Source of the DNA: Billgrantia tianxiuensis
GTDB taxonomy: Bacteria > Pseudomonadota > Gammaproteobacteria > Pseudomonadales > Halomonadaceae
Direction of reading: 5' to 3'
DNA: 64,000 nt
NCBI RefSeq assembly: GCF_009834345.1
Contig: NZ_CP035042.1
Span: forward strand, 1,860,001 to 1,924,000
Below the pieces are notes generated by a model that made no database searches, was not told where the DNA came from, and saw only the letters and a list, made by a program, of their open reading frames with translations. How positions within the stretch are numbered: position 1 is the stretch's first letter; each line of letters begins with the position of its first letter. This document shows positions 23,663 through 48,198 of the stretch, piece by piece. The translations under genes and the position numbers were made by a program.

Positions 23663-24430
23663 TCAGTGGGCAACGGCGATGCGGTGCTCGCCGCTGGGGT
23701 GCGGCATGACACGCATGGGCAGACCGTAGATGGCTTCCAGTGTGGCTTCGGTCATCATCGTGTCGGGAGCCCCATGGGCCAGGATCCGGCCACCGTGGAG
23801 CGCGAGCAGTTCGTCGCAGTAGCGCGAGGCCATGTTGATATCGTGCAGCACGATGATCACGCCGAGCCGCAAGTCGTTGCACAGTTTGCGGATCAGGGCC
23901 AGCACCTCCACTTGGTGCGCGATGTCCAGTGCGGCCAAGGGTTCGTCGAGTAGTAGAAAGCGGCTCTGCTGGGCCAGTAGCATGGCAAGCCATACGCGCT
24001 GTCTTTCGCCGCCCGACAGGGTATCCACCAGGCGATCGGCGAAGGCTTCGGTGTGGCTGAGTTCGATGGCGCGTCGTATGGCGGCCTTGTCCTCGGCGGT
24101 ATGGCGCCCCAGCAGGCCGTGCCAAGGATAGCGACCGAAGCCGATCAGCTCGCGACCGGTCAGGTTCTCGGCACTGGGAAGGTGCTGGGGCAGATAAGCG
24201 ACCCGGCGGGCGAATTCGCGCTGGCCCCATGCACTCAGCGGACGGCCGTCGAGGCGGATCTCCCCCTGGCTCGCCGGTTGCTGTTGAGCGAGCAGTTTGA
24301 TCAATGTCGATTTGCCCGACCCGTTATGCCCGATCAGGCCATAGACCTTGCCTTCCTCGAAGCGATATTCGACGGGCTCGAGCAGGCGCTTGCCGTTGAC
24401 CTCGAAAGTCGTGTCTTTGACTTCGAACAT
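23663..24430 (-). CDS. fhuC: Hydroxamate siderophore ABC transporter ATPase FhuC
   Basis: A 255-residue ABC ATPase powering import of ferric hydroxamates. Walker A GHNGSGKST (34-42), signature LSGGERQRVWLAM, Walker B LLLDEPLAALD and the switch His in VLHDINMASRYCD are present. Segments such as VAYLPQHLPSAE, GRYPWHG and DIAHQVEVLALI follow E. coli FhuC rather than FepC or BtuD. AAGGGAA precedes the ATG at 24430. It follows an unrecognised 134-residue gene by 20 bp on the same strand, and the membrane subunit FhuB is divergent. Confidence 0.92.
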   Translation of the reverse strand: MFEVKDTTFEVNGKRLLEPVEYRFEEGKVYGLIGHNGSGKSTLIKLLAQQQPASQGEIRLDGRPLSAWGQREFARRVAYLPQHLPSAENLTGRELIGFGRYPWHGLLGRHTAEDKAAIRRAIELSHTEAFADRLVDTLSGGERQRVWLAMLLAQQSRFLLLDEPLAALDIAHQVEVLALIRKLCNDLRLGVIIVLHDINMASRYCDELLALHGGRILAHGAPDTMMTEATLEAIYGLPMRVMPHPSGEHRIAVAH

Positions 24431-24450
24431 GCGGGTTCCCTTGTGAGTTC

Positions 24451-24855
24451 CTACCAGCCCAGCCAACTGAGCAGTCGCTGGCGAGGTGAGGTGATGCGGC
24501 TGGCCGAGGCTTGGCCACGCTTTCCCGACAGCTGCAGCATGGCCTCCTGCAGAGGTGCCATGATCGCCTCGAGATGATGCTGGCAAAGCCGTCGATTGAG
24601 CGCGCCGGGACACTGGGCCATGAGCAGGCCGCAGTGGTAAATGGCGGTATCAAGCGATGCTTCGATGTGCTTGAAGGGCGACGCTTCCCAGCGGCAGCGC
24701 TGCAGTTCGCGACAAAGCAATTTGAGCGTATGCGCATCCAGCCAGCAGGGAGTCTCGTCGCCGGCAGGGGAGCGTGTCACCGCATTCCGTATTGCCTGAA
24801 AAGAGACATGCAGGAAGACACAGGTGTAGTAGAGCTGGGAGCGTTGCGATGGCAT
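24451..24855 (-). CDS. Unrecognised 134-residue cysteine-rich protein upstream of fhuC
   Basis: Not recognised. The reading frame encodes 134 residues with seven Cys (12, 37, 48, 54, 75, 82, 91) and six His (16, 42, 63, 74, 93, 94), no signal peptide, no membrane segment and a basic tail ending SWLGW. It does not show the CC-x10-CxxC pattern of FhuF reductases. The ATG at 24855 was chosen because GAGGG stands eight bases upstream and because a Fur-like palindrome (24877-24895) covers the longer in-frame options. It ends 20 bp before fhuC, so the two likely form a Fur-controlled operon. That it is a real gene rests on spacing, ribosome site and composition. Confidence 0.5.
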   Translation of the reverse strand: MPSQRSQLYYTCVFLHVSFQAIRNAVTRSPAGDETPCWLDAHTLKLLCRELQRCRWEASPFKHIEASLDTAIYHCGLLMAQCPGALNRRLCQHHLEAIMAPLQEAMLQLSGKRGQASASRITSPRQRLLSWLGW

Positions 24856-24876
24856 CAGGATCGCCCTCATCGCACT

Positions 24877-24895
24877 AATGAGATTGATTTGCATT
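24877..24895 (-). promoter_or_regulatory. Fur box before the 134-aa gene and fhuC
   Basis: AATGAGATTGATTTGCATT matches 15 of 19 positions of the AATGATAATnATTATCATT form of the Fur site. It lies just upstream of the ribosome site of the minus-strand unit. Confidence 0.6.
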
Positions 24896-24966
24896 TTGGA
24901 TGTGAGAGTTGCTCCTGTCAAACTCACTCCGCAGGCAAATGAGAATAGGTTGTAACACGGTTCTAT

Positions 24967-24981
24967 TGATAATCGTTTTCA
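24967..24981 (+). promoter_or_regulatory. Fur box before fhuB
   Basis: TGATAATCGTTTTCA fits the 7-1-7 Fur pattern TGATAATnATTATCA at 12 of 14 positions, with a perfect left half. It is 45 bp before the fhuB start. Confidence 0.65.
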
Positions 24982-25026
24982 GCTAGGATGCCGCTGCAAC
25001 TCGCGAAGACGATCAGGAGCCAAGGC

Positions 25027-27029
25027 ATGCCAGGGGGAATGCGGACATTCGAGCAGGTGAAGAGTGGGCTTTCGCCGTTCCTTACCTGCTTGTTGCTGAG
25101 CCTGCCCTTGGTATTGCTGCTCGGGTACGGGCTGCTGGAACAGGGTGGCATTGAACTGGGGTTGAAGGCATTGGTCGCCCCTACGCCACAGGAGTCTCGC
25201 GAGCTGCTGCTGCACTACGCTTGGTGGCCGCGACTCGCCGTATCGCTGTTGGCCGGTGCCGGCCTGGCCATGGCCGGTGTGCTGATGCAGCAGGTACTAC
25301 GCAATCCGCTGGCATCGCCCACGACGCTGGGTGTGGCCGCTGGTGCCAACCTGGCGCTGATGGCAGCCACTCTGCTGGCGCCGGGACTGCTGGCGCTGGG
25401 GCGTGAATGGGTGGCCTTGGCTGGCGGTGGGCTGGCGATGGCCCTGGTGTTCCTGCTCGCTTGGCGCCGGGGGCTGGCGCCCGTGGTGGTGGTATTGGCA
25501 GGTCTGGTGGTCAACCTCTACCTGGGAGCGCTGGCGACGGCGTTGTTGCTGTTCAATCACGAGTTGCTGTCGGGACTGTTGATCTGGGGGGCTGGATCGC
25601 TGGCTCAGAATGGCTGGAACGGAGCAGCCACGCTGTGGCCGCAGCTCGCCATCGGTGCCGTGGCAGCCTTATGCCTGCTGCGCCCGTTGGCGGTGCTGGA
25701 GCTGGATGATGCCAGTGCCAAGAGCCTCGGCGTATCGCTCAAGGCGTTGCGCCTTGCCGGCTTGGGGCTGGCCGTCTTTCTGACCGGCAGCGTAGTGAGC
25801 GTGGTGGGCATCATCGGCTTCATCGGGCTGGCGGCTCCCAATATCGTGCGGCTGGCCGGAGCACGTCGCCTCGGCCAGCGTCTGCTGTGGGGAACGTTGC
25901 TGGGAGCAGTGCTGCTGGCTACGACCGATCTGCTGTTGCAGCACTTCACCGGGATGCTGCCGACGCTGGTACCCACAGGGGCCGTGACCGGGGCCTTGGG
26001 GCACCTCTATTGATGTGGCTGATCCCACGCTTGAAGCTGCAGGCCAACCGGGCGCCCCAGCCAGCCGCCGTGCTGGCGAATCGACATGCTGCGCCGGCGC
26101 GGCCGACGATAGTTCTGCTCATTGCACTCTTGCTGGCAGTAGGACTCGGTCTGCTGCTGGGGCAGGGCGCCGATGGTTGGTACTGGTTGGCACCCCACGA
26201 CTGGAGTGTGATGCAGTGGCGCGTGCCCCGGGTCGTGGCGGCGGCAGCCAGTGGATTGATGCTGGCCATTGCGGGCACGTTGCTGCAGCGTCTTTCCGGC
26301 AACCCCATGGCAAGCCCCGAGGTGCTGGGAGTCAGCGGTGGCTGTGCCATCGCGCTGATGCTGGGGATCTTCCTCATGCCTGCCCCCAGTAGTGGAACGC
26401 TGGTCGTAGTGGGGACCTTGGGGGCACTCGCCTCGCTATTGGTCCTGGTGGCGCTCAATCGCCGCAGCGGCTTCGTGCCTGAGCGTCTATTGCTGTGCGG
26501 GGTGGCGATTGGTGCCCTGTTCGATGCGGTGCGCAGCGTATTGCTGGCCGGCGGCGATCCGCGCGGCCAGCAGATCATGGCCTGGCTGGCCGGTTCCACC
26601 TACTACGTCGACCTCACCAGTGCCCTGGCGATGGGCCTCGTGGCCGCGACACTGGCACTCTTGGTCCAGCCGCTTGCGCGCTGGCTGGACATCTTGCCGC
26701 TGGGAGCGCCGACCGCGCTTGCGCTGGGCATTTCATTGAGTCGCGCCCGCCTGGTGCTGCTGCTGCTAGTGGCCCTGCTGACGGCTTGCGCCACTTTGAT
26801 GGTCGGGCCGCTCTCCTTCGTTGGGTTGCTGGCGCCCCACCTGGCCAGGCTGATCGGCCTGTCGCGGGCGCGCCACCATCTGCTGGGAGCGGCACTGGTG
26901 GGAATGTTGCTGATGGTGCTGGCCGATTGGGTAGGGCGCCAGGCCATTTTTCCCTATGAAATCCCTGCCGGCCTGGTCGCTTCCCTGATCGGCGGTGCCT
27001 ACTTCATGTGGGGGCTTAGGCGTTTGTAA
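25027..27029 (+). CDS. fhuB: Hydroxamate siderophore permease FhuB, fused two-domain form (one frameshift)
   Basis: Inner-membrane channel of the Fhu importer. Two FecCD-type permease domains stand in one gene: the first to about 25995, with AGAGLAMAGVLMQQVLRNPLASP and GFIGLAAPNIVRL, the second with ASGLMLAIAGTLLQRLSGNPMASP and SFVGLLAPHLARLIG. The frame breaks between them: PTGAVTGALG should continue APLLMWLIPRLKLQ, read one base over. A missing G in the run at 25998-26001 restores a 667-residue protein, close to the 660 of E. coli FhuB, so two separate permease genes are less likely. AGGAG at 25015-25019 selects the ATG at 25027; a Fur box lies upstream. Confidence 0.88.
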
Positions 27030-27051
27030 TGAGGCCATCGTTGATGTCATG

Positions 27052-27077
27052 GCCCGCTCGTCGATGAACGAGCGGGC
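27052..27077. terminator. Inverted repeat between convergent fhuB and iucD
   Basis: A 10-bp perfect stem (gcccgctcgt / acgagcgggc, 27052-27061 and 27068-27077) with 6-base loop, 22 bp after fhuB. No T-run follows on either side, so termination is likely but not certain. Confidence 0.55.
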
Positions 27078-27116
27078 TGAAACATTGAATAATGAGCGCC
27101 TCCCAGCGAGTCAAGG

Positions 27117-28424
27117 TCAAATTGCCTGGACCCAGCGCTGTTCAGTTATGGGCTGCCACTCGATAGGACCTTCATTCTCGCTCAGATCGAAGGCCTGGTG
27201 GCCGGCGATATGGTTGAGGATGGTCGCCGAACGCCAGGCCATTAGCGACAGCTGCGGCTCCGCTATGCCGTGACTGTGACGGCCTGCATTGACCGCATAG
27301 ATGCGATGCGCCGTGGGACCGTCCCAGCTCGCCTCGAAGTGGGGGCCCAGCACCAGCTCGCCATGAGCATCTCGCTCGAGTCGCGGGGTCAGCTCGGCCA
27401 AGCAGTCCGGCAGATGCGAACAGAAGCCGGTGGCAAAGACCACCACGTCAGCATTGAAGTGTTCTCGATCGCCGGTAAGCCCATGCTGGGTGGTCAGGAC
27501 GAAGCCTAGGCCGCTTCGGCTCAGGGCGACGGCCTCGCGGTGTGGAAAGAGTCGCGCCCAGCGGGGCTCGCCGAGCACGTCGAAACGGTGGTAGAGCTCG
27601 CGGTAGAGCGATTGCAGGGCGGCAGGGGTGATGCCGTCGCTGGCCAGCTTCTGGGCCGCCACTTCACGCGCGCGAACCTCGCGGGGCAGACCGTGGAAGC
27701 CGCGGGTATAGTCGGGCGTGAAGTACTCGTTGGTGAAGGCGGTCTCGTCGAGGGGTTCGAAATTGCGCCGTCGCGAGATCCAATGCAGCTCCCGTGGCTG
27801 GCCCCAGTGCCCGCGCAGGGCATTGAGAAAGATGTCGGCGCCGCTCTGACCGCCGCCGACCACCACCACCCGGCGCCCGCTGAAGTCACGTTGGGTCCTG
27901 GCGATCTCGGCGGCGTGCAGGCAATGGGAGCCACGCAACGCCTCGGCGAAATCCGGTAGCCAGGGACGTTTGCCGGTGCCCAGGCTAAGGTGGCGGGCGC
28001 GGTAGTCGCCGGCGTCGGTGCGTATCCGGAAGCCGCGGGCGTCGAGCCGGACCTCCCGCACCGCTTCGCCGAGGGCGACGTTTTCCAGGCGCCGGGCGGC
28101 CCAGCCGAGGTAGTCGGAAAACTCGGCACGGCTGACGGTACCTAGCTCGGCGTTGAGGAAGCGGTAGAAGCGGCGGTGCTCGACCAGATAGCTGAGGAAG
28201 GAGTGGCGGCTATCCGGCGCCACGGCGGTGACCAGATCCTTGAGGAAGCCGGTCTGCAGATGGGTATCGGGGAGCATCAGCCCTGGGTGCCAGACCGGGT
28301 CGTGGCGGCGCTCGAAAAAACGTGTGGCGAGTCGTGTCAGGTGCGAGTCGGCCAGCGCGGCGATGCTCAGGTTGAAGGGCCCGGCGCCCAGGCCGGCCAG
28401 GTCGAGAACGTTGGAGTCAGACAT
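27117..28424 (-). CDS. iucD: L-lysine N6-monooxygenase (aerobactin type)
   Basis: A 435-residue FAD- and NADPH-dependent N-hydroxylase that begins hydroxamate synthesis by oxidising the side-chain amine of lysine. The FAD motif is LAGLGAGPFNLSIAALA; MLPDTHLQTGFLKDLVTAVAP is the substrate-side block; VVVGGGQSGADIFLNAL binds NADPH; and VVFATGFCSHLP is the C-terminal ATG-type motif. Lysine rather than ornithine or a diamine is inferred from the iucA-B-C-D order. AGGAGG precedes the ATG at 28424, and the gene overlaps the end of iucC by 8 bp, so it is the last gene of the operon. Confidence 0.92.
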   Translation of the reverse strand: MSDSNVLDLAGLGAGPFNLSIAALADSHLTRLATRFFERRHDPVWHPGLMLPDTHLQTGFLKDLVTAVAPDSRHSFLSYLVEHRRFYRFLNAELGTVSRAEFSDYLGWAARRLENVALGEAVREVRLDARGFRIRTDAGDYRARHLSLGTGKRPWLPDFAEALRGSHCLHAAEIARTQRDFSGRRVVVVGGGQSGADIFLNALRGHWGQPRELHWISRRRNFEPLDETAFTNEYFTPDYTRGFHGLPREVRAREVAAQKLASDGITPAALQSLYRELYHRFDVLGEPRWARLFPHREAVALSRSGLGFVLTTQHGLTGDREHFNADVVVFATGFCSHLPDCLAELTPRLERDAHGELVLGPHFEASWDGPTAHRIYAVNAGRHSHGIAEPQLSLMAWRSATILNHIAGHQAFDLSENEGPIEWQPITEQRWVQAI

Positions 28425-30228
28425 TGGACACCTCCTGTGTCTTGGCGATGCCGGCCGCATCGGCCGGCTGACGGACGAAGTGCAGCGGGTTGTCGACACG
28501 CAGCTCCATCTCCGCGAGCATGCGGTCCGCAGCCGCGTCAGTGGCATGCAGGAACTTGGCGCGGTTGAGCGTCAGGCGCAGGATGCGTGGGGCGAACAGC
28601 TCGAAGCGGTCAAAGCGCTCGGCCAGCTCGGGATGCCGCCCCCGATAAGCCGTGAGCACGTCACCACAGAGTCGATAGAAGCACGCTTCCGAGACCCCGC
28701 AGATGCCGGCGAGGGGGGCGATGAAGCGCAGGGTGGTGACGAAGTGGCCGGTCTGCAGATCATGGATCAGCTTATCCGGCGGTAAGCGCACCGTGACGTC
28801 CTTGAGCTCGACGGGCAGGTCGTGAGCCTCCGGGAAGTCCTCATCGGCCAACCGCAGGTCGCCCTGGAAGTCCTTGAGGGCCAGGCGATGGGGCCAACCG
28901 TCGCGCAGGATCAGGGTGAGGTTCTGACCGTGGGCGATCAGTGACACGCCGTAGCGGCACATCAGGTGCCAGAGCGGCACCAGGGTGACCTCGAACATTC
29001 GTGTGAGCCAGGCCTGCGCCGTTTGGGTGTCGTGGGCGCCGGCGGCCGTGAGGTAGGCGGCGAGCCAGGGCCGCCCGTCCTCGTCGACCTGCATCAGCTC
29101 GGCCATCAGCAAGGCCTGCTCGTTGGCCGCCAGGCGCGGTGCCAGGGCTTCGCGCCAGATCACCCCGAACAGCTCGCGGTAGCGGTAGGGCGACTGCGGC
29201 AAGCGGGAATATTGGGCATGGGGCAGCACGGCCCCCGCGGGCTCGGCGAGGACCTCCAGGTGCACGCGGGCGAACTCGTCGTCATCGCGCGCCCGGGCCT
29301 TCAGCCAGGCCGAGGCGGCGGGGCCGGCGAGCAGGAAGCGCCCGGGAATGCCGCGGTAGCAGGAGGTATTCATGATGGTCAGCGGCAGCTTGATGTCGTA
29401 GGCCGACGGTCGGCTGACGTTGGTCAGGGTGCGCAGTGATTGCTGGGGCACGTAGGCATCGCCGAATTCGCCGAGATAGACCAGGCGACGATGAGCGATG
29501 TCGGCGGCGTGAAGGGGGCCGAGCCATTGCTGCCACTGCCAGGGGTGAACCGGCAGCAGCCGATAGGCGCCGGGGTCCGTTACCCGCTCGGCCAGCGCCC
29601 GGTGCAGGCGGGTCTTCTCGTCCTCGTCCAGCGCCGAGTCGAGCAGGGGAGCGGCGTCGACGGGGCCGCCACCACAGGCCAGGGCATTGACGTCGATGGC
29701 CACCCAGCCGAGACGGAAGGTGTTGCCGTGCTCCGGGGCGAAGCGTGCCAGGGCCTCCAGTCCCCAGCCGCGACGGCCCTTGTTGAACAGGAACTTGGGA
29801 TGGCCGTCGAGCAGGCGCTGACGTTGCGGCTCGGGCAGCAGAATGGCCACGTCGGCACTCAAACCGCGGCGAGCCTCGCGCAGCCGGCAGTCGGCGCGCA
29901 GAGTGGCAAACAGATCTTCCAAATGTTCGGCGACCTGGGCGTCGCTCATGCCGAGCTCCGGTGCCAGGGCGAGGAGGAAGTCGGCGGCCTCGAGGGAGGC
30001 GCCGGCGGGCGGCACCAGGCTCGCGGGGTCAACCCGGGGTTGCCGCCAGAGGTTGGAGCTGGCCTGGAAGCGCCAGGCCCCACTCTCGCCCAGGTCGAGC
30101 CGCTGGCCGTCGCCGTCGTTTGTCAGGACGATGACCTGTTCATAAGCCAGCTCACCGATCATCTTGGCGATCAACTCTCGATTGGCCGCTTCCCAGTGCG
30201 GCGCCAGACAGGTGTCGAGCGGCTCCAT
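28417..30228 (-). CDS. iucC: Aerobactin synthase IucC (NIS synthetase)
   Basis: A 603-residue NRPS-independent siderophore synthetase of the IucA/IucC family, followed by the FhuF-like C-terminal region of that family. It adds the second acetyl-hydroxylysine to the citrate intermediate. Shared with E. coli IucC are LSADVAILL, DGHPKFLFNKGRRGWG, LPVHPWQWQQ, LPLTIMNTSCYRGIPGRF, SLIAHGQNLTL and KDFQGDLRL; the ATP and carboxylate sites lie in these blocks. ATG at 30228 with GGGAGG upstream; a GTG one codon earlier is the alternative. It overlaps the iucB stop by one base. Confidence 0.94.
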   Translation of the reverse strand: MEPLDTCLAPHWEAANRELIAKMIGELAYEQVIVLTNDGDGQRLDLGESGAWRFQASSNLWRQPRVDPASLVPPAGASLEAADFLLALAPELGMSDAQVAEHLEDLFATLRADCRLREARRGLSADVAILLPEPQRQRLLDGHPKFLFNKGRRGWGLEALARFAPEHGNTFRLGWVAIDVNALACGGGPVDAAPLLDSALDEDEKTRLHRALAERVTDPGAYRLLPVHPWQWQQWLGPLHAADIAHRRLVYLGEFGDAYVPQQSLRTLTNVSRPSAYDIKLPLTIMNTSCYRGIPGRFLLAGPAASAWLKARARDDDEFARVHLEVLAEPAGAVLPHAQYSRLPQSPYRYRELFGVIWREALAPRLAANEQALLMAELMQVDEDGRPWLAAYLTAAGAHDTQTAQAWLTRMFEVTLVPLWHLMCRYGVSLIAHGQNLTLILRDGWPHRLALKDFQGDLRLADEDFPEAHDLPVELKDVTVRLPPDKLIHDLQTGHFVTTLRFIAPLAGICGVSEACFYRLCGDVLTAYRGRHPELAERFDRFELFAPRILRLTLNRAKFLHATDAAADRMLAEMELRVDNPLHFVRQPADAAGIAKTQEVSNV

Positions 30229-32881: not shown

Positions 32882-32914
32882 GACGGCAACCTCCTTGTTG
32901 AGAATAATAAAGCT

Positions 32915-32933
32915 AATGAGAATGTTTAAATTT
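32915..32933 (-). promoter_or_regulatory. Probable Fur box before iucABCD
   Basis: AATGAGAATGTTTAAATTT matches the Fur palindrome at 13 of 18 scored positions; a second TGAGAAT half-site lies 18 bp away (32899-32905). The pair sits 34-52 bp upstream of the iucA start. Confidence 0.5.
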
Positions 32934-32975
32934 TTAAGGTAATTATGGTTCCTCCCGACCCGTCACGTGGGCCAA

Positions 32976-36446: not shown

Positions 36447-36517
36447 TGGGGTCCCTTGCCTGGAAGTCTTCGATGATGCTTGCAAGAGGCGAGGATAGCA
36501 TTACAAAAAATAATATC

Positions 36518-39746: not shown

Positions 39747-39765
39747 TTCGTCAGGGTGTTAAGCA

Positions 39766-39793
39766 AGACACCCGGCCGCTGGGCCGGGTGTCT
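39766..39793. terminator. Terminator between convergent FhuA-like genes
   Basis: A 12-bp perfect stem (agacacccggcc / ggccgggtgtct) with GCTG loop, 20 bp after the plus-strand receptor and 27 bp before the end of the minus-strand one. Confidence 0.85.
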
Positions 39794-39820
39794 GCGTTTG
39801 GCTTAGGCTTCGTCAAGACG

Positions 39821-41922
39821 TCAAAAAGCGTAACTCAGCGTGCCGAGCACACCGCGTTCAGCGCCGAAGTAGCAGAACTCGAGGGAGTTGCACGAAGCGA
39901 CGTACTCTTCGTCGGTGAGATTGGTGACGTTGAGGCGCGCGCTCATGCCGTCGAGGCCTAGCCGGCCGAGGTCGTAGCCCAGGGTGGCGTCGACCAGGGT
40001 ATACGCCGGCACCTCGGCGGTGTTGGCCCGGTCGGCCTGGATGTCGGCGTAGTAGCGTATCCCCAGTCCCGCATCGAGCCCGGCCAGCGCACCGTTCTGA
40101 AAGGCATAATGCCCCACAGGCTGGCCTGGTGACGTGGTGCATAGATGGCGCGGTTGCCCTGGTTGCCGTCGTCACTGCGCTTGTAGGTGATGTCGGTATA
40201 GCTATACGCCGCCTGCAGTCTCAGGCTGTCGGTCAGGTGGGTGTACGCCTCGAGCTCGAGCCCCTTGGATTCGATCTCGCCCACGGCGCGATAGGGGTCG
40301 GTAGGCTGTTCCTTGGTCGCCACGTTCTCCTGGTTGATCTGGAACAGCGCCGCGCTGTAGCGATCCCGGGTTCCCGCCGGCTGATACTTCAGGCCGGTCT
40401 CGATCTGCCTGCCCTCCATCGGGGGGAGCAAGTCGCCCTCGGCATCAACGAAGCTGGTCGGCGTGAAGGCGGTAGAGTAGCTGACGTAGGGAGCGACGCC
40501 GTTGTCGAACAGGTAGAGCAGGCCGGCGCGGCCGCTGAGCTGGGTGTCGTCGAGTTCGCTGGTGTCGCCGCTGTCCCGGTTGGTGTTGGCGATATCGACC
40601 CAGTCGTAGCGTCCGCCCAGCGTCAGCCGCCAGTTGCCCAAGGCCATCTGGTCCTGCAGGTAGATGCCGGTCTGGCGGAGTTCGTGGTCCTCACGCAGGG
40701 GAGCGAACATGGCGGTCGGTCCGGCGCCGTATTGCGGGTCGAAGGCATCGATGTTGGGGAACATGCCGGAGGGCCACTCGACGCGATTGTCGCGCCGTTG
40801 ATAGTCGGCGCCAACCAGCACGGTATGGTCGATGAAGCCGGTGGACAGGCTGGCTTCGAGCTGGTTGTCGAGGGTCCAGGCTTCCAGGGACTCGTCGGAA
40901 CCCGAATAGTAGCGGATCAGCTCGCTGTCGCTGCCGGGAGCCCAGCCGTAGGCATAGACCTGATTGAGCGTCACGTCTGCGTTGAGGTAATTCAGCCGCT
41001 GACGCCCTGTCCAGGCCTCGTTGAAGCGGTGCTCGAGTTCGTAGCCCAGCAGTCGCTGGGTGCGCTGGTACTTGTCGTACTCGTCTTCGCCCTCGAAGAA
41101 ACTATTGGATATGCGTCGGCTGCCGCGATCCACCGCGGTGCCCTCATAGGGCAGGCCGGCATGATAGCCTCCCTCGGGATCCTGCTGCAGGTAGGCCTTG
41201 AGCGTCAGGCTGGTAGCGTCGTTGAGGTCCCAGGTCAGGGAGGGGGAGATGGCATAGCGCTCCTCTTCCACTGGGCCGAACTGGGTGTCGGCGGCCCTGG
41301 CCAGGCCGACGAGTCGGTAGGCGACGCGCTGCTGCTCGCCCAGTGGTCCCGTCAGGTCGAAGGCGACACTGCGCTGGGCGTTGTTGCCCGCGGAGAGGCG
41401 TAGTTCGCCGCCTTGCTGGAACTGTGGGCGCTTGCTGGTGAGGGCGACGACGCCGCCCGGCGAAGCCTGGCCATAGAGTACCGATGCCGGCCCGCGCACC
41501 ACCTCGATGCTGTCGAGAAACCATGGATCGATGGTCATCGAGCTATGCGAGTTGGTATCCCCCATCAGCTTTAGGCCATCGAGGAAGGTATTGCTGAGGC
41601 TGCCGTCGGAGAAGCCGCGCAGCACCAGGTAGTCGAAGCGGTTGGAGGCGCCGATCTGGTTGGTGAAGACGCCTGGAGTGTAGTCCAGGGCGCGCTGCAC
41701 GGTTTGGGCGCCGCGGCTTTCCCACTCTTCGCGCTCGATGGTGGAAGTCGACTGTGGCGTTTCGACGAACGGCGTCTCGGTCTTGGTCGCGGCCTGCCCG
41801 GTAATGGTCAGCGCCTCCAGGGTCTCGGCCGGTGTCTCGGCGGACTGTTGTGCCTGGGTCTGGATGGCAACGAGGGCAGACACGAGAGAGATGCTCAGTG
41901 CCAGTGGGCGGGGTGTCGGCAT
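39821..41922 (-). CDS. TonB-dependent siderophore receptor, FhuA family (one frameshift)
   Basis: A second FhuA-like receptor of 700 residues after correction. Signal peptide MPTPRPLALSISLVSALVAIQTQA; TonB box EALTITG; plug blocks YLVLRGFSDGSLSNTFLDGL and SIEVVRGPASVLYGQASPGGVV. The frame breaks near the C-terminus at the C-run 40112-40115: APRHQASLWG should continue HYAFQNGALAGLDAGLGIRY, read one base over, and end YVASCNSLEFCYFGAERGVLGTLSYAF. The ligand is unknown. AGAGGAA precedes the ATG. A weak Fur box lies upstream, then an AraC-type regulator on the same strand. Confidence 0.84.
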
Positions 41923-41955
41923 GGTGGTTCCTCTGCGGAATGTTATCTCATCGGT

Positions 41956-41974
41956 AATGAGAATTATTCCTTGT
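41956..41974 (-). promoter_or_regulatory. Weak Fur box before the second FhuA-like receptor
   Basis: AATGAGAATTATTCCTTGT: good left half (8 of 9), poor right half. It lies 34 bp upstream of the receptor start, between it and the AraC-type regulator. Confidence 0.4.
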
Positions 41975-42024
41975 CCTGGATGTCGCCGTCCTCTGCCGTG
42001 CGCTCAGTTTTCTCTGCGCGGCGC

Positions 42025-42960
42025 TCAGCCTGCACCGCGCAGAGAACTTGGCGGATAACCGTAGCGCTGGCGGAAGGCTGTGGTGAAATTGTTGGCATGC
42101 CGATAGCCGGCGCACTGGGCGGCGCGCTCGATACCGTGGCCTTGCAGCAATAGTTCGCGGGCGAGTTCGAGACGCCGTTCGCGCAGAAAATCGAAGACGG
42201 AGCAGCCATATGCCGCCTGGAACTTGCGGCGCAGGGTGGCGGGGCTCATGGCGGCCTGTTCGGCCAGCGCTGACAGGCTATGCGAGCGTGCCGGGCAGCT
42301 TTGCAACTGTTCGCGGACACGCTCCAGGCGCTGCCACTCCCCGGGAGAAAGCCGGGCGGAGGATACGTCCAGCTCTGTTGGCAGGCCATGAGCCAACAGC
42401 TGAAGCGCCAGCCCTTCCCATTGCAGACGCGATGCCATACCGTCCAGAGGGGAATTCAGGGCCTGGTCGATCAACTGCTGCAAGCCGGAGGGCAACGTCC
42501 AGGCATGTAGGCTCGAGCCTGGCCGTGACGGTTTGCCGCCCAGCGTAGCGGCCAGGCGCGGTGCGTCCAGAGCCAGGGTTAGGGCGCGTATGCGCTGGCC
42601 GGGAAGCTGCATGGCCTGCAGACCCTGGTGCTCGTCCAGCCGCACACTCAGCGCCATGCCGGAGGTGAATGCAAGGCGTTTCTCGCCCAGACCGATCTGC
42701 GCGCGCCCCTCCAGCATGACGATGATCGACAGCGGGGCAGGGCGGTGCGAGCAAGAGTCGTAGCGCTGCAGCACCTCGATGTCCGAAGCGATCAACTGCA
42801 TGCCGGCCGCCGGGGCAAGCTCGAGGATGTGTCCGCGAAGTACGGCCTGCCCAGCCGCTGCTGGTGGCTGCGTGGGAAAGCGGTAGTCGATACCGTAGCG
42901 TTCCCCGTAGGTCCGCAGGTCGCGGGAGGTATGCTGGCAGACGGCGGTGGACAACGTCAT
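42025..42960 (-). CDS. AraC-family regulator, PchR/AlcR-like
   Basis: A 311-residue regulator. The C-terminal third has two helix-turn-helix motifs: LSALAEQAAMSPATLRRKFQ and IERAAQCAGYRHANNFTTAFRQRYGYPPS. The N-terminal part, with LSIIVMLEGRAQIGLGEKRLAFTSG, resembles the sensor half of PchR-type regulators, which activate siderophore genes when ferric siderophore is present. Its targets are inferred to be the neighbouring receptors or the iuc genes. GGAG seven bases before the ATG at 42960 decides the start over three upstream in-frame starts. Divergent from the TonB operon; two Fur boxes in the gap. Confidence 0.82.
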   Translation of the reverse strand: MTLSTAVCQHTSRDLRTYGERYGIDYRFPTQPPAAAGQAVLRGHILELAPAAGMQLIASDIEVLQRYDSCSHRPAPLSIIVMLEGRAQIGLGEKRLAFTSGMALSVRLDEHQGLQAMQLPGQRIRALTLALDAPRLAATLGGKPSRPGSSLHAWTLPSGLQQLIDQALNSPLDGMASRLQWEGLALQLLAHGLPTELDVSSARLSPGEWQRLERVREQLQSCPARSHSLSALAEQAAMSPATLRRKFQAAYGCSVFDFLRERRLELARELLLQGHGIERAAQCAGYRHANNFTTAFRQRYGYPPSSLRGAG

Positions 42961-43262
42961 GCCATCGCTCCGCATGTGGTGCAGAGAATAGCCGGGCGGT
43001 TGCCATGGCAAGCCGAGGCAGCGATAGCGGCATGAGTATGCAATGGCATGGGAGCGACAGTGCCAATCTTGATGTGGGCGATGAGGGCAGTATAACGTTT
43101 GTGCTTACAATCTCAATGATAAGGATTGTGATTATGATTTGTCTCTAGAGGTTGGCGGTACGCCGATTTCATTGATAACGGTTATCATTTATGGCATCGT
43201 CTTGCCCTGTCCGCATGGGCGGCACCATCTGTTCATTGAGTGTTTCTGCCAGGAGTCCGCAC
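42961..43262. promoter_or_regulatory. Divergent control region of the AraC regulator and TonB operon, two Fur boxes
   Basis: A 302-bp gap. AATGATAAGGATTGTGATT at 43115-43133 matches the Fur palindrome at 15 of 18 scored positions. TGATAACGGTTATCA at 43173-43187 is a perfect 7-1-7 inverted repeat differing from consensus at two symmetrical bases, the best site in the window. AGGAG at 43251-43255 is the ribosome site of the first gene of the TonB operon. No other gene was seen. Confidence 0.72.
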
Positions 43263-44035
43263 GTGAGATCGTTTCGCCAACCATGCCTCTGGGGGCCATG
43301 CTCTGGCTGGGTCTGGCCGCCTCGGCCTCCGCAGACCCCGAGCTACAGCAGGAGACGAGAGAGGCTCAGCGTAGCCAGGCCGAACTGCAGGCCAGTATCG
43401 ACGCCGCCGACGACGAGGCGCGAGCCATGCTCGAGGAACTGCGTGAGCTGGAGCGTGCTGAGCGCCGCCTTGCGCGAGAGAACGCCGAGCTGGCGCCGCG
43501 GCTCGAGCGCCAAGCCGCCATGCTGGATCGTCGCGAGGCGGCACTCGATACCTTGGCGGAAACCCGTGAAGCCTTGCCGGTACTGCAGGAGCGCCTGATC
43601 GAGCGGCTCGAGCAGTGGGTCGACGACGATATGCCGTTCCTACGCGAGGAGCGTCAGGCACGGGTTGCCAGCCTGCGCTCCCAGGCCGATGAACTGACCA
43701 GTGCCGAACGCTGGGAGCGGATCGTCGCGGCGTGGCGCACCGAACTGGATTACGGACGCGAAGTCGATGCCTGGCGCGGCTACCTCGGAGAGGGAGATTC
43801 GCGCCGCGAGGTGGACTACCTGAGGCTTGGGCGAGTGGGCTTCTATTATCTGACCCCGGACGGCCGCGCCGGGCGCGTGTGGCAGGCTGATACCGGCAGT
43901 TGGGCACCGCTCGACGAAGCCCAGCGTCGCGATGTGCGCAATGGCCTGCGCATCGCACGCGATCGCCGCGCCCCCGAACTGCTCGAGCTACCCATTTCGC
44001 AGCCGCTCGAACGCACCGAGGAGGGCGGCGCATGA
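43263..44035 (+). CDS. DUF3450 periplasmic coiled-coil protein of the TonB2 operon (one frameshift)
   Basis: A DUF3450-family protein, usually first gene of TtpC-type TonB operons. It is strongly helical: about residues 25-130 are an E/A/R-rich coiled coil, followed by LGRVGFYYLTPDGRAGRVWQ. With a GTG start at 43263, which has AGGAG seven bases upstream, the N-terminus is VRSFRQP and then MPLGAMLWLGLAASASA, a good signal peptide. The two parts are one base out of frame at 43281-43282, so one base is probably missing. Without correction, the only start (ATG 43283) lacks a ribosome site and positive charge. Corrected length is 257. It overlaps ttpC (ATGA). Confidence 0.8.
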
Positions 44036-45426
44036 GACTGTCGCGTTTTGCTCCAGGCCTTCTGCTGCCAGGCCTTCTGTTGATAGTAATAGGCCTCATG
44101 TGTATCTCGACGAATCTCCAGGCACAGTCGGAGCCGTTGACCACCCTGCGCGCCGAGCGTGAGGCTGCCGAGGCTCGCGACCGGGCGCGTCTGGCCGAAT
44201 TGCTCGAGGACCGGGATGCCCTGGAAGCCGCTCTCGAGGAGGCCCGCGCCGCCCATGGTCAGGCTGAGGCGCGCAACAGCGAGCTTAGGGCCGAGGCCGA
44301 GGCGTTGAACGAGCGCCAGGCCGAGCTCGAGGCGCGCCAACAGGAGCAGGGGGATGACCTCGAGGCGATCCTGGCCTCGCTTGCCCAGCACAGCGGCGAA
44401 TTGCGCGATGGCCTGGCCGACAGCTGGCTGATGGTGCAGGGTGCTGGGCTGCCGCCGCGACTCGACGATGCTGAAGTGCTCGAACTCGAGCATCTCGAAG
44501 CCTTCGCCGATAGTCTGGTAGCGCTGACCGCGGATACCGCGCGGGTGGTTCGCTTCGAGGCGCCGGTGGCCGCGGCCGATGGCGAGATTGCGCCGCGCGA
44601 AGTGATCCGCGTCGGCGATTTCACTGCCTTCACCGACGGTCACCTGCTGCGTCGCGGCGTCGACGACCGGGCCCTGTCGGTGGTCGAGCGTACCCCGCGT
44701 GAAGTCGCCGCGAGCCTGGCGGCCTTCCATGCCGGCGAATCGCGCTCGCTGACGTTCGATCCGACACGCGGCCAGGTCATGGCGGCCCTGGCACAGCGAC
44801 CGAGCCTGCTCGAACGCTTCCATCAAGGTGGGGCGGTCGGCTATGTGGTGGTGGGGCTGGGGGCCATCGGCCTGTTGGTTGCCCTGCTGCAATATGCCTA
44901 TCTGCTGCGCGTCAGTCTGGCCATGCGTCGCCAGTTGCGCGATCTCACCACATTGCGCGAGGACAATCCGCTCGGCCGCGTGCTGCTGCGCTTCGGGGCG
45001 CTGAGGGACGACCCGGTGCCGGAAGCGCTGGAGGCCCGCCTCGACGAAGCGGTGCTGGCCGAGCTACCGCGCCTCGAGCGCGGCCAGCCGCTGGTCAAGC
45101 TGCTGGCCGCCGTGGCGCCGCTGCTGGGGCTGCTGGGCACCGTCACCGGAATGATCGTGACCTTCCAGGCGATCACCGTATTCGGTACCGGCGATCCGCA
45201 GCTGATGGCCGGCGGCATCAGTCAGGCACTGGTGACGACCGTGCTGGGCCTGATTACCGCCGTGCCGCTGCTGTTCGCGCATACGGCGCTGGCGGGTCGC
45301 AGCCGTCGCCTGGCGGGGCTGGTGGAGGGACAGGCCAGCGCCGCCCTGGCCGAGCAGCTCGAGCAGCGCCCGCATGGGCCCGACAGCATCACCGGGAGTG
45401 CCCGCCGTGATCCCGCTCTGGCTTGA
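44032..45426 (+). CDS. TtpC-type MotA/TolQ/ExbB proton channel protein
   Basis: A 464-residue inner-membrane protein. A signal or anchor segment lies at 8-28, then a long charged coiled coil (about 35-110) and a periplasmic domain, then three membrane segments at about 268-293, 355-380 and 398-420. The channel block LVKLLAAVAPLLGLLGTVTGMIVTFQAI is the MotA/TolQ/ExbB signature. The extended N-terminus distinguishes it from ordinary ExbB and matches TtpC, an accessory subunit required by TonB2 systems of Vibrio. It overlaps both neighbours, so expression is coupled. Confidence 0.86.
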   Translation: MRLSRFAPGLLLPGLLLIVIGLMCISTNLQAQSEPLTTLRAEREAAEARDRARLAELLEDRDALEAALEEARAAHGQAEARNSELRAEAEALNERQAELEARQQEQGDDLEAILASLAQHSGELRDGLADSWLMVQGAGLPPRLDDAEVLELEHLEAFADSLVALTADTARVVRFEAPVAAADGEIAPREVIRVGDFTAFTDGHLLRRGVDDRALSVVERTPREVAASLAAFHAGESRSLTFDPTRGQVMAALAQRPSLLERFHQGGAVGYVVVGLGAIGLLVALLQYAYLLRVSLAMRRQLRDLTTLREDNPLGRVLLRFGALRDDPVPEALEARLDEAVLAELPRLERGQPLVKLLAAVAPLLGLLGTVTGMIVTFQAITVFGTGDPQLMAGGISQALVTTVLGLITAVPLLFAHTALAGRSRRLAGLVEGQASAALAEQLEQRPHGPDSITGSARRDPALA

Positions 45427-45943
45427 GCCGCTGCAGCGCCTGGTCGAGGCGGGCGGCTCGGTCCTGGTGGTGATCGCGCTGGTCGCCATGCTGCTGTTCA
45501 GCCTGGCGCTGGAGCGGGTGTGGTATTTCCGCATCACCTACCGCCGCGCGCGGCGTGCCCTGATCGCTCGCTGGATGGCGCGCCAGGATCACTTGAGCTG
45601 GAGCGCGCTCACGCTGCGCGAAGCCTGGGCGCGTGAGCTGATCGGACGGCTGCGCCGTCCGCTGCCGTGGCTCAGGCTGCTGGTGGCGCTGTGCCCACTG
45701 CTGGGGCTGCTGGGCACGGTGACCGGCATGATCGCCGTGTTCGACAGCCTGGCGATGACCGATACCAGCCAGGCCCGCGCCATGGCCGATGGCGTGGCCC
45801 GGGCTACCCTGCCGACCCTGACCGGCATGGCGGTGGCGGTGGTGGGGCTGCTGTTCACCAGCCGCCTCGAGCAGATCATTCGTCGCGAGGACCAGCGGCT
45901 GCACGACCGCTTGGCCCGTGCCGTGGAGGATACCGATGCGTAG
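45407..45943 (+). CDS. exbB: ExbB-type proton channel subunit
   Basis: A 178-residue three-helix protein that uses proton flow to energise TonB. The first membrane segment is about 18-38, and the conserved channel block is LLVALCPLLGLLGTVTGMIAVFDSLA with the third segment TLPTLTGMAVAVVGLLFTS. It is the short ExbB of TonB2 systems (E. coli ExbB is 244). The GTG at 45407 with GGAG upstream was chosen; it overlaps the end of the TtpC gene by 20 bp. Confidence 0.87.
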   Translation: MIPLWLEPLQRLVEAGGSVLVVIALVAMLLFSLALERVWYFRITYRRARRALIARWMARQDHLSWSALTLREAWARELIGRLRRPLPWLRLLVALCPLLGLLGTVTGMIAVFDSLAMTDTSQARAMADGVARATLPTLTGMAVAVVGLLFTSRLEQIIRREDQRLHDRLARAVEDTDA

Positions 45944-46343
45944 ACGCCGCCTTGGCGCCGATGACGGCGAGGCCAGCGAAGTCAACCTGACGCCGATGCT
46001 GGACGTCGTCTTCATCATGCTGATCTTCTTCATCGTCACCACCAGCTTCATCAAGGAGAGCGGGGTGGAGATCGAGCGACCCGAATCCAGCGCCGCTTCC
46101 CCGCGGCCCGATGCCCAGGTGATGGTTGCCATCACTCCCGAGGGGGCGGTATGGGTCGACGGCCGCGCGGTGGACCTGCATCGCGTCGGTGGCGAAGTGG
46201 CCTCGCTGGTGAGTGATGACGGCTCGGTGGTGATCCAGGCTGACCGCGACTCCACCACCGGTCTGCTGATCGAAGTGATGGATCGCATCCGCGAGGCCGG
46301 CGTGGAGCAGGTGGCCGTGGCCGCCAGCCGGAGCAGGCCGTGA
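45936..46343 (+). CDS. exbD: ExbD biopolymer transport protein
   Basis: A 135-residue inner-membrane protein with one N-terminal transmembrane segment, VNLTPMLDVVFIMLIFFIVTTSF, carrying the essential membrane Asp of the ExbD/TolR family, and a periplasmic domain ending IREAGVEQVAVAA. GGAGG before the ATG at 45936 sets the start, inside the last codons of exbB. Partner of ExbB in the TonB energizer. Confidence 0.9.
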   Translation: MRRRRLGADDGEASEVNLTPMLDVVFIMLIFFIVTTSFIKESGVEIERPESSAASPRPDAQVMVAITPEGAVWVDGRAVDLHRVGGEVASLVSDDGSVVIQADRDSTTGLLIEVMDRIREAGVEQVAVAASRSRP

Positions 46344-47100
46344 CGCGTATACCGTTCTCTGCATTGGGCGGGGTGGCTCTCGCATTGTTGTTGTTCTGGC
46401 TGCTGGCACTGCTGGTGGCGCCGCCGGAAGAGGAGTTCGACGTCATCGACGAGAGCCTGACACTGAGCATGGTCGAGGCCCCAGAGCCGGTGCAGGAGGA
46501 AGTGGTCGAACCCAGCGCCGAACCGCCGCCTCCCCAGGCCGAAGCGACGCCACCGCCTCAGCCGGAACCGCTGCCACCGCTGGAAAGCGCGATCGCCATG
46601 CCCGAACCGGAGCTGCCGCCGGAACCGGTGGAACCGCTCGAACTCGACACCAGCTTGCCCGAGCTCAGCGAGGCCCGGCCGGAACCTCCGCCGGAGCCCG
46701 CTCCGCAGCCTCGGCCAGAGCCCGAGCCGACGCCCGAGCCAGCACCGTCATCCCAGCCGAGCCCGTCGCCGGCACCCAGTGCGGCCCCTGCCGAGTCCGC
46801 CCCCGTTGAACCTGCGCCCGCCGAGCAGGGGCCGGTGGATGTAGGCCAGATCGCCCCGACCAATCGCGTACCGCCGGAGTACCCCCGCGTGCACAGCGGC
46901 GCGGCCTGGAAGGGCACGTGGAGCTGCAGTTCCTGATTCGTCCCGACGGCAGCGTCGATCGCTCATCCATCCGTGTGGTCGAGTCTCAGCCGCGCCACGT
47001 CTTCGATTCGGCCGCCGAGCAGGCCGTGGCGCGCTGGCAGTTCGAGCCGGCCAGCGGCGTGCGGCGTGCGCGGCAGCGCCTCGAATTCCAATTGAGGTAA
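46340..47100 (+). CDS. tonB: TonB energy transducer (one frameshift)
   Basis: A 253-residue protein: N-terminal anchor (about 8-28), a very proline- and glutamate-rich linker (about 48-165, PEP/PAP repeats) that spans the periplasm, then the C-terminal TonB domain. The frame is lost at the C-run 46882-46886: VPPEYP should continue PRAQRRGLEGHVELQFLIRP, read one base over, and end ARQRLEFQLR. One missing C restores it. GTG start overlaps the exbD stop (GTGA). It would energise the three receptors in this window. Confidence 0.88.
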
Positions 47101-47103
47101 ACC

Positions 47104-48198
47104 ATGGCGATGCGTGCCGTACGATATCTCGTGGTTTGTGGTCTCGTCGTCTGTGCCGGGCTGCTGGTATCCGCTTCGGCGATGGCCCAGGCGCCGGCGC
47201 TCTCCGGCGATATCATTGCCGACCTGGAGCAGCTTCAGCAGGCGCTACGGCAAGGCGAACACGAGCGGGTGGCCGAACGTGCTCGTGCTCAGGCGCAGCG
47301 TTTTGAGGGAGGCAATGCCGCCGACCGCTGGGCCAGCGCCCTGTATCGTCAACTGGCCGCGGGTGCCGCGGCCGGAGTAGGGCAGCATGAGGCAGCCGCC
47401 GAGCAACTGCGCCAGGCGCGCCGCATCCAGGAGGCACCGCAGGTGCAGCGTGACCGTTGGCTGCAGGAAGAAGCCCGGCTGCGCTTGGCTGCCGGCCAGA
47501 TGGAAGAGGCAGTAACGCTGTGGCTCGACTGGCATCAGCGACATGACGGCAGCCCCGACGACCGTTGGCGTCTGGCGCGTGCTTTGGCGGAGCTGGAGCG
47601 CTGGGAAGAAGCGGCGCAGTGGGTCGAGCGTGCGTTGGCCGACGACCCGGCCCCGGGTGAGCGCCGCCAGGCGCTGGCGGCTACCGTATTCCAACGTGCC
47701 GGGCGCGGCGAGCAGGCGCTGGCAAGATTGGAAGCTTCGCTGAACGCACAGGCCGAGCCCGCCGCGTGGCGCCGGGCGGCGGCGTTGGCCCAAGGGCTTG
47801 GCGATGCGCAGCGGGCTGCGGCGATATGGGAGGCCGGCTGGCGTCTCGGGGCGTTGGCAGGGGAGGACGACCTGCGTCAGCGCATCGAGCTGCACCTGGC
47901 CGCCGGCACTCCGGCCCGGGCCGCCGAATATCTACAAGCGGCGCTGGAGGAAGGGGCACTGCCCGACACCGTTGATCATCGGCGTCTGTTGGCTCGTGCC
48001 TGGGAAGCGGCCCGTGATCGCGAGCGCGCGCTGGAGGCTTGGCGTGAGCTGGCGCGGCGCAGTGGAGAAGGCCAAGACTGGCGGCGCCTGGGCCTGCTGG
48101 CCCACGCCTGGGGGCGGCCCGAGCTGGCCCGGCAGGCCATGCAACAAGCGCAGCGCCGCGGTGAAGAGATCGATCCGCGCTGGCTCTCGACCCTTTAG
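47104..48198 (+). CDS. TPR-repeat protein of the TonB2 operon
   Basis: A 364-residue exported protein. A signal peptide ends near SASAMAQ; the rest is a run of degenerate tetratricopeptide repeats, such as WLDWHQRHDGSPDDRWRLARALAELERWEEAAQWVERAL. TPR proteins are often the last gene of TtpC-type TonB operons, where their role is poorly known. It starts 3 bp after tonB, so it is the sixth gene of this operon. It is convergent with xthA, and no clear terminator lies in the 34-bp gap. Confidence 0.78.
   Translation: MAMRAVRYLVVCGLVVCAGLLVSASAMAQAPALSGDIIADLEQLQQALRQGEHERVAERARAQAQRFEGGNAADRWASALYRQLAAGAAAGVGQHEAAAEQLRQARRIQEAPQVQRDRWLQEEARLRLAAGQMEEAVTLWLDWHQRHDGSPDDRWRLARALAELERWEEAAQWVERALADDPAPGERRQALAATVFQRAGRGEQALARLEASLNAQAEPAAWRRAAALAQGLGDAQRAAAIWEAGWRLGALAGEDDLRQRIELHLAAGTPARAAEYLQAALEEGALPDTVDHRRLLARAWEAARDRERALEAWRELARRSGEGQDWRRLGLLAHAWGRPELARQAMQQAQRRGEEIDPRWLSTL

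Follow-up and report, generated by a model that had tools for sequence, protein, structure and literature searches.

Aerobactin systems on enterobacterial plasmids comprise iucABCD-iutA and shiF, with the synthesis genes in the order iucA-iucB-iucC-iucD. In the available part of a report on Vibrio, deletion mutants of V. vulnificus lacking tonB2, ttpB2 or ttpD2 of the TonB2 operon (ttpB2-ttpC2-exbB2-exbD2-tonB2-ttpD2) were unable to use aerobactin (PMC6957404). The accessible portion of a genome note on H. elongata names an aerobactin transport system in the annotation (PMC6318351). The same gene set and order as in the plasmid systems were found in a 24.5-kb block within the stretch analysed here (the window; 64 kb of Billgrantia tianxiuensis contig NZ_CP035042.1). 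The locus differs from the plasmid systems in being chromosomal and in having fhuBCD and a TonB2-type operon adjoining, and its IucA and IucC are 44% and 50% identical to their best plasmid relatives. The block is probably one of the alleles at a variable slot for iron acquisition, where cassettes are exchanged beside the TonB2-type operon, and the slot pattern across the genus is well supported.

Gene content of the block

Genes were assigned by profile and sequence searches, which recovered the families named in an earlier note on this DNA: iucABCD, FhuC, FhuD, FhuB with its two FecCD halves, three TonB-dependent receptors, an AraC-type regulator and the energiser genes. The left anchor, sodB (superoxide dismutase; 22922..23533, + strand), was named by sequence recognition; 80 of the 90 genomes of the genus carry its ortholog (E<1e-100). 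A terminator scan placed a terminator-like hairpin after it (23560..23587, + strand). Beyond it lie fhuC (23663..24430, - strand; ABC ATPase, PF00005), which is 86-97% identical in G079, G010 and G057, and fhuB (25027..27029, + strand), which encodes a double FecCD permease and has a frame break near 26.0 kb in the assembly. Between the two is a conserved orphan gene of ~134 aa with conserved Cys/His residues (24451..24858, - strand), which was missing from the earlier list of genes and matched no Pfam family.

The synthesis genes iucD (27117..28427; lysine/ornithine N-monooxygenase family, PF13434), iucC (28417..30231; NIS synthetase, PF04183), iucB (30228..31130; GNAT acyltransferase, PF13523) and iucA (31130..32881; NIS synthetase, PF04183) lie on the - strand, each abutting or overlapping the next. 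The best solved relatives were 5jm7 (aerobactin synthase IucA, E 3e-115) for IucA and 6cn7 (aerobactin synthase IucC, E 3e-167) for IucC; the IucB acyltransferase and IucD monooxygenase, assigned at Pfam level, share their operon. The proposal of an NIS aerobactin-type route was borne out at the level of gene content, and synthesis, export, receptor, importer and TonB2-type energiser genes adjoin on the chromosome.

A shiF-like MFS exporter gene (32976..34170, - strand; MFS_1 on the N-terminal part) is broken at 33.3 and 33.6 kb. It is followed by an iutA/rhtA-type TonB-dependent receptor gene (34335..36449, - strand; NCBIfam RhtA, E 1.5e-186, 621.8 bits against a model cut-off of 1100) and by fhuD, encoding a periplasmic binding protein (36565..37443, - strand; PF01497; NCBIfam FhuD E 1e-54, below the cut-off). 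Two further TonB-dependent receptors are present, both FhuA-like according to the earlier note. Receptor 2 (37656..39746, + strand) is of hydroxamate type. For receptor 3 (39958..41922, - strand; cut short at its C-terminus by a frame break near 40.1 kb) the description was revised: it scored as FoxA-like (ferrioxamine), with 1022 bits to NCBIfam FoxA over its first 601 residues (model cut-off 1300) and FoxA/CntO entries as top PDB matches. Next comes the regulator gene (42025..42975, - strand), PchR-like in the earlier note and assigned here as AraC-type by its DNA-binding domain (PF12833).

The right anchor is the first gene of the energiser operon, a ttpB-type DUF3450 gene (43283..44035; PF11932), followed on the same + strand by ttpC (44029..45426; PF01618), exbB and exbD (45374..46343; PF01618, PF02472), tonB (46340..47097) and a ttpD-type TPR gene (47104..48198), the last assigned by position and by weak TPR matches below Pfam cut-offs. 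The tonB gene is frame-broken near 46.9 kb, with the C-terminal domain PF03544 (window 46882-47058) in a different frame from the N-terminus. The order DUF3450-ttpC-exbB-exbD-tonB-TPR is that of TonB2/TtpC energisers. The available part of the Vibrio report gives the same six-gene order, with a DUF3450-type gene first and a TPR-type gene last, and Fur-box-like sites precede both operons (PMC6957404). The Billgrantia operon differs in adjoining a variable siderophore slot and in having tonB broken in the assembly, and its role is predicted.

The energiser is a fixed core apart from the siderophore genes. Because ttpC was present in 89 of the 90 genomes and NIS synthetase genes (PF04183) in 44, the block is not one transferable module. 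Elsewhere in the genome there are further FecCD permeases and, at 2.58 Mb, a second TonB with an adjoining ExbB-family gene; functional self-sufficiency is therefore neither required nor demonstrated. A local gene set that looks complete does not necessarily move as a unit.

Fur-box-like sites and frame breaks

At a cut-off of at least 13 of 19 matches to the consensus, seven Fur-box-like sites were found in the window, all inside the block, while shuffles of the block averaged 0.23. These sites are clearly non-random; the earlier estimate of about ten is too high at this cut-off. Two (24880 and 24962; 24880..24980) lie between the orphan gene and fhuB, one (32912..32930) before iucA, and two (43118 and 43174; 43118..43192) before the TonB2-type operon. 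Product, regulation and transport roles are predicted as follows. Under iron limitation Fur would leave its boxes, IucD and IucB would convert lysine to N6-acyl-N6-hydroxylysine, and IucA and IucC would couple two of these to citrate. ShiF would export the siderophore product, the IutA/RhtA-type receptor would import the iron complex powered by the adjoining TonB2-type operon, and FhuD with FhuBC would move it into the cytoplasm.

The system had been called complete. As assembled it is not: four block genes are frame-broken, namely fhuB (two frames), shiF (three frames), tonB and receptor 3. If the breaks were real, the system would be decaying and the strain would have no working aerobactin pathway. 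We consider this improbable. Frame breaks were just as frequent outside the block: comparison with G036 showed 8 across 31.3 kb there, and the 24.5-kb block has 5 clear ones. Those outside struck housekeeping genes whose sequence on either side of the break was 97-100% identical, among them an ETF-dehydrogenase-like gene near 20.5 kb. Comparisons of relatives with one another gave 0, 0, 1, 0 and 1 frame breaks in 35-41 kb, and intact frames were found for shiF in six loci, for fhuB in three and for tonB in G010. Other parts of the genome also contain a FecCD gene split into two adjacent pieces and two receptors with short frames. Since housekeeping genes are broken as densely and relatives almost never, the breaks are probably sequencing or assembly errors rather than decay.

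The sodB-ttpC slot across the genus

The slot would span the region from the sodB hairpin to the DUF3450-ttpC-exbB-exbD-tonB-TPR operon, and in this strain would contain fhuC-orphan-fhuB, an iucDCBA-shiF-iutA cassette, fhuD and a second set with the FoxA-like receptor and the AraC regulator. Both anchors, sodB and ttpC, were located on one contig and no more than 45 kb apart in 54 of the 90 genomes, with start-to-start distances of 1.6-2.5 kb in 16 genomes and 5-43 kb in 38; in the remaining genomes they were far apart on one contig (6), on different contigs (19), or one was not found (11). Contents of the 54 slots were classed as empty (16), aerobactin (3), staphyloferrin-B-like (8), desferrioxamine-like (4), uptake without synthesis (20, of which G051, G066 and G071 were so classed from a receptor alone) or ribonucleotide reductase (RNR) only (3). 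Conserved anchors, unrelated alternative contents and empty alleles, the pattern of an exchangeable cassette, were thus found together. On the left, homology stopped 58-65 bp past the sodB stop in all five occupied alleles compared with the empty site of G043; in the window it ends at position 23593, just beyond the hairpin. The right-hand boundary varied by ~190 bp.

Of 44 genomes bearing PF04183, 36 had a sodB ortholog and 28 of these had a match within 45 kb of it; in one of the 36 the match was 566 kb away and in seven it was on other contigs. In all, 65 of 78 NIS matches lay near sodB. In the 44 genomes read, the slot makes up 0.43% of the summed genome length and has 68 receptor ORFs, where the genomes as a whole gave 219 plug-domain matches.

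The staphyloferrin-B-like class was defined by profiles on proteins of two of its eight genomes (G053, G068) and by BLAST and clustering in the rest; of the set SbnC, SbnF, SbnG-like and SbnH-like, G053 gave SbnF (E 3e-161) and SbnC (E 6e-108), both below curated cut-offs, and aldolase and decarboxylase families were matched as well. The desferrioxamine-like cassette has an acyltransferase-synthetase fusion and a decarboxylase (profiles on G088) and a monooxygenase found by BLAST to IucD (32-33%); it occupies the slot of G088, G074, G085 and G033, the last three placed by BLAST and clustering, and lies near sodB in G018, G047, G026 and G021. Non-iron cargo comprised phage-tail-like genes in G061, DUF3584 in G071 and an RTX/CBM protein in six genomes.

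The genes would have been scattered in close relatives had the earlier reading been wrong in the way its author foresaw. The outcome was mixed: G079, G010 and G008, the nearest of the aerobactin carriers, have them at the same sodB-anchored site, and more distant carriers have them in other surroundings. Recent acquisition as a mobile island, or as an aerobactin module derived from a plasmid, would account for the lack of iucDCBA in the slot of the closest relative, G036, but is highly improbable: the site is shared with G079 and G010, the energiser occurs without aerobactin genes, there was no tRNA gene in the 64-kb window, the scan of 30 window ORFs reported no integrase, transposase or other mobility domain, and no plasmid relative was at least 60% identical to IucA (1718 records) or IucC (1826 records). 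The same observations tell against the self-sufficient, transferable module of the earlier note.

Nucleotide identities show the strain's own slot to be a mosaic, with the backbone nearest G036, sodB-fhuB nearest G057 and iuc nearest G079. The backbone had a median of 95.4% to G036 (67 windows of 500 bp), whereas sodB-fhuC (83.7%) and orphan-fhuB (78.1%) fell under all 67. To G057 these segments were 92.5% and 88.2% identical (backbone median 87.8%), and exbB-exbD was 96.8% identical (exbB 98.0%, exbD 95.4%), exceeding all 75 backbone windows; iucDCBA was missing from the G057 stretch also. To G079, iucDCBA was 90.2% identical, exceeding all 32 backbone windows (median 83.0%), which were drawn mostly from the right flank. 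To G010, iuc was at backbone level (86.5% against a median of 85.6%), and therefore no recent transfer is needed there.

Backbone-level identity to G010 would also fit a large iron locus of long standing next to sodB that held several siderophore systems and underwent lineage-specific loss with little exchange. So would the size of the transport-without-synthesis class, the largest at 20 of 54, the staphyloferrin-B-type importer and receptor kept in G036 where the synthetases are absent, the IutA-like genes without iuc in G004, G005, G027, G041, G050 and G068, and the staphyloferrin-B-like and desferrioxamine-like sets near one sodB in G075. We regard such a history as unlikely, given the mosaic with G036, G057 and G079, the closeness of iuc to G079 beyond any backbone window, the foreign exbB-exbD tract inside the "fixed" operon, and differences in gene order and orientation among carriers (fhuB lies between fhuD and iutA in G010 and beside iucD in G000 and G079).

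The six slot states required at least 15 changes (least possible 5; shuffled mean 29.1) on a tree of SodB and TtpC, slot-flanking proteins that may themselves recombine; single-protein trees gave 21 (SodB) and 15 (TtpC), and such counts do not separate gain from loss. On this tree G079, which has aerobactin genes, and G043, whose slot is empty, are sisters, and the scatter of the aerobactin rows, three only, was no stronger than in shuffles.

In the preferred reading, cassette exchange at the slot, the siderophore part would be gained, lost and replaced across the genus while the anchors stay; we infer homologous recombination in the conserved flanks as the simplest route. On a broader proposal opinion is evenly balanced. 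This is a Halomonas "plug-in bay", in which the TonB2 energiser with its Fur-box-like sites and the sodB hairpin are fixed walls, and aerobactin, staphyloferrin-B-like and desferrioxamine-like systems, pirate receptors and iron-sparing nrdIEF are swapped through homologous recombination; whatever siderophore system arrived would then sit beside a ready energy supply.

Relation to known systems

Turnover of siderophore types at one chromosomal site beside a fixed energiser would make a bacterium's siderophore readable from one PCR-sized locus, and the question of why siderophore genes are where they are becomes testable. Empty, pirate-only and producer alleles form a natural series within one genus for testing the origins of public-goods producers and cheaters, and the slot adds aerobactin-type and staphyloferrin-B-like NIS pathways to Halomonas predictions beside lipopeptides and desferrioxamine E. 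No report of the sodB-ttpC slot locus was found in searches of open-licence papers. Capsule/O-antigen-type exchange loci have conserved flanks and an interchangeable middle, as does the slot, whose cargo is iron acquisition beside an energiser.

The desferrioxamine E cluster of Halomonas gemina matches the desferrioxamine-like cassette in receptor, HTH regulator, siderophore reductase, MFS, monooxygenase and decarboxylase genes, and the available part of that report mentions no site common to other siderophores (PMC10291192). Siderophore systems of the Vibrionaceae, aerobactin included, likewise combine vertical descent, loss and transfer, with no common exchange site described in the portion of the source available (PMC5812596). 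Siderophore clusters in flexible islands of Acinetobacter baumannii are likewise gained and lost, in one species; as far as the available part of that source extends, one cluster occupies two insertion sites there, whereas in Halomonas different systems occupy one site (PMC4507327).

Gene content and broken reading frames

The window covers positions 1,860,001-1,924,000 of a 5.0-Mb genome assembled as one contig. For biosynthesis and ABC import, profile searches of the block (23663..48198) recovered FhuC, two FecCD permease halves, IucD, IucC, IucB, IucA and a periplasmic binding protein, and for its other genes three TonB-dependent receptors, an AraC-type regulator, DUF3450, TtpC, ExbB and ExbD. 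The TonB C-terminal domain and the N-terminal part of the MFS exporter (shiF) were also matched, and the TPR protein gave weak matches. Two aerobactin synthases were the best solved relatives of IucA and IucC. Fur-box-like sites numbered 7 in the window (expected 0.23), all inside the block. The earlier note had described a complete aerobactin-type system; the families assigned were largely right, as matched by profiles, though several reading frames are broken in the sequenced version, which is hence not complete.

Within the block, frame changes were found in fhuB, shiF (twice), receptor 3 (the FoxA-like receptor, 39958..41922, minus strand) and tonB; two extra breaks, near 42.0 and 45.4 kb, were rated doubtful, each being seen with one relative only. 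Outside the block, comparison with G036, the closest genome by backbone, gave 8 more frame changes in 31.3 kb (near 9.9, 11.9, 12.5, 20.5, 49.3, 52.1, 55.9 and 63.2 kb of the window), several with 97–100% identity to G036 on either side. The genes broken there include those for a DinG-like helicase and for an ETF-dehydrogenase-like protein. As a control, relatives were compared with each other and showed 0, 0, 1, 0 and 1 frame changes in 35–41 kb, the two single changes falling in the same gene of G010 (taken as B. ethanolica). Pseudogene decay was rejected as the main reading because the breaks also lie outside the block and are rare between relatives; breaks in genes outside the block indicate an indel-rich assembly. 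The frame changes are therefore read as probable assembly indels, with the aerobactin system probably intact in the living strain. Elsewhere in this genome, two receptors have short frames, and a FecCD permease is split into two adjacent pieces (C1:3323669-3324582), probably by another frame break.

The slot between sodB and the energiser operon across the genus

The genus set comprised 90 genomes, one per species and the window's own included. ttpC was found in 89 of the 90 and a sodB ortholog in 80; both were on the same contig and no more than 45 kb apart in 54. In the other 36 genomes the anchors were far apart on one contig (6), on different contigs (19), or one of them was not found (11). 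Start-to-start distances were 1.6–2.5 kb in 16 of the 54 linked genomes, with room for the DUF3450 gene alone, and 5–43 kb (mean 19.9 kb) in the remaining 38. The slot, from the sodB hairpin to the DUF3450-ttpC-exbB-exbD-tonB-TPR (energiser) operon, was read fully in 44 linked genomes; ten with short gaps entered the tree only.

The aerobactin genes of the window fill three of the 38 occupied slots: those of G000 (the window's own genome), G079 (taken as H. alkalisoli) and G010. A fourth carrier, G008 (taken as B. desiderata), is split over two contigs, and iuc likewise adjoins sodB. A staphyloferrin-B-like set (SbnF/SbnC/IucA-like synthetases, HpcH/HpaI aldolase and decarboxylase) occupies 8 slots, a desferrioxamine-like set (acyltransferase-synthetase fusion, decarboxylase and monooxygenase) 4, permeases and/or receptors without synthesis genes 20, and nrdIEF only 3; of the 20 slots with uptake genes alone, 8 also contain nrdE. 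Summed over the 44 genomes read, the slot takes up 0.43% of genome length, yet 68 receptor ORFs lie in it; plug-domain matches in the same genomes add up to 219 (from per-genome totals). A scan of the slots with NRPS motifs returned no A-domain match and only two chance-like C-domain matches.

NIS synthetase genes (the IucA/IucC type) were found in 44 of the 90 genomes, of which 36 have a sodB ortholog and 8 lack one. The NIS gene lies within 45 kb of sodB in 28 of those 36; in the remaining 8 it is on another contig (7) or 566 kb off (1). Two of the empty-slot genomes (G015 and G046) carry an NIS gene elsewhere. Eleven more genomes with staphyloferrin-B-like or desferrioxamine-like NIS genes near sodB have ttpC unlinked or on another contig; in the seven stretches read, the sodB region retains fhuBCD, exporters, FoxA-like receptors, AraC and FhuF together with one of the two sets (both in G075).

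Between fhuC and fhuB lies an orphan gene (24451-24858, minus strand; ~134 aa), relatives of which are present in 21 slots of other genomes. No Pfam domain was matched in its product. Its 75 relatives have as named sources Halomonas, Billgrantia, Modicisalibacter, Salinicola, Pistricoccus and one 'Pseudomonadota bacterium', and C38, C83, C92, H75 and H95 are invariant in 36 aligned members. The predicted model is helical (mean pLDDT 85.5); a fold search with it against the PDB gave no match at E ≤0.001 (best 0.088).

Other cargo was also seen. Directly after sodB, nrdIEF stands in ten slots (G004, G009, G027, G048, G056, G062, G064, G073, G084 and G087) and is broken in that of G080; it encodes a class Ib-type ribonucleotide reductase with NrdI, a class known from iron starvation. 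The G061 slot (L084-L086) carries ~30 kb of contractile-tail-like genes with phage baseplate/tail domains (Baseplate_J, Tail_P2_I), and in six slots (G041, G050, G053, G057, G065 and G082) the gene immediately before DUF3450 codes for a long protein (1149 aa in G053) that combines RTX repeats with a cellulose-binding part.

Slot edges, identity mosaic and turnover

Relative to the empty site of G043, homology stopped 58–65 bp beyond the sodB stop in five of five occupied alleles (G079, G010, G000, G057 and G036), in the window just beyond a 12-pair terminator-like hairpin. On the right it restarted at points ranging from ~20 bp before the called DUF3450 frame to 175 bp within it, a spread that makes this edge less sharp.

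Backbone identity to G036 had a median of 95.4% (67 windows). In the slot it fell to 83.7% over sodB-fhuC and 78.1% over orphan-fhuB, both under every backbone window, and identity to G057 was higher (92.5 and 88.2%). iucDCBA, with no counterpart in the compared G036 or G057 stretches, was 90.2% identical to G079, exceeding all 32 G079 backbone windows (median 83.0%); as counter-evidence, iuc was 86.5% identical to G010, not above the G010 backbone (85.6%). Receptor 3, araC and DUF3450-ttpC tracked G036 again (88.0 and 91.2%). exbB-exbD (45404-46343) was 96.8% identical to G057, exceeding all 75 backbone windows, with the genes around it tracking G036; on these identities it is an apparent short foreign tract within the energiser operon.

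Six content states were mapped on a SodB + TtpC tree of the 54 linked genomes. They needed 15 changes (minimum possible 5, shuffled mean 29.1, 0 of 200 shuffles as low), a count that does not separate gain from loss and is drawn on flanks that may themselves recombine. It indicates that slot contents follow descent in part but have changed often. For the aerobactin rows, three in number, three changes were needed, the same as the chance expectation for three rows. G079 is sister to the empty G043.

Function and known systems

Going by known families, IucABCD would make aerobactin, ShiF would export the product, and IutA with the Fhu proteins would take up its ferric form. The product may be ochrobactin-like, IucB loading a longer acyl group instead of acetyl. 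FhuBCD may serve aerobactin alone or other substrates as well, and the AraC-type regulator may be PchR-like, as the earlier note had it.

A homologous six-gene TonB2 operon with a predicted Fur site is described for V. vulnificus, and deletion of tonB2, ttpB2 or ttpD2, each alone, abolished aerobactin use there (PMC6957404). The neighbourhood therefore makes functional sense, with hydroxamate uptake next to its energiser. Dependence on the local operon is only a prediction, since the genome has a second TonB + ExbB-family pair at 2.58 Mb. In an uncultured Halomonas (L008, 4619-16696), DUF3450-ttpC-exbB-exbD stands directly before shiF-iucABCD-fhuC and is a second arrangement uniting energiser and aerobactin genes.

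A plasmid origin of the aerobactin genes was rejected, all plasmid relatives of IucA and IucC being less than 60% identical. A mobile-island reading of the block was also rejected, with no tRNA gene in the window and no integrase or transposase domain among the 30 of its ORFs that were scanned. The transferable module proposed in the earlier note gives way to a sodB-anchored exchange slot, a pattern akin to known cassette-exchange loci, for which we infer the mechanism.
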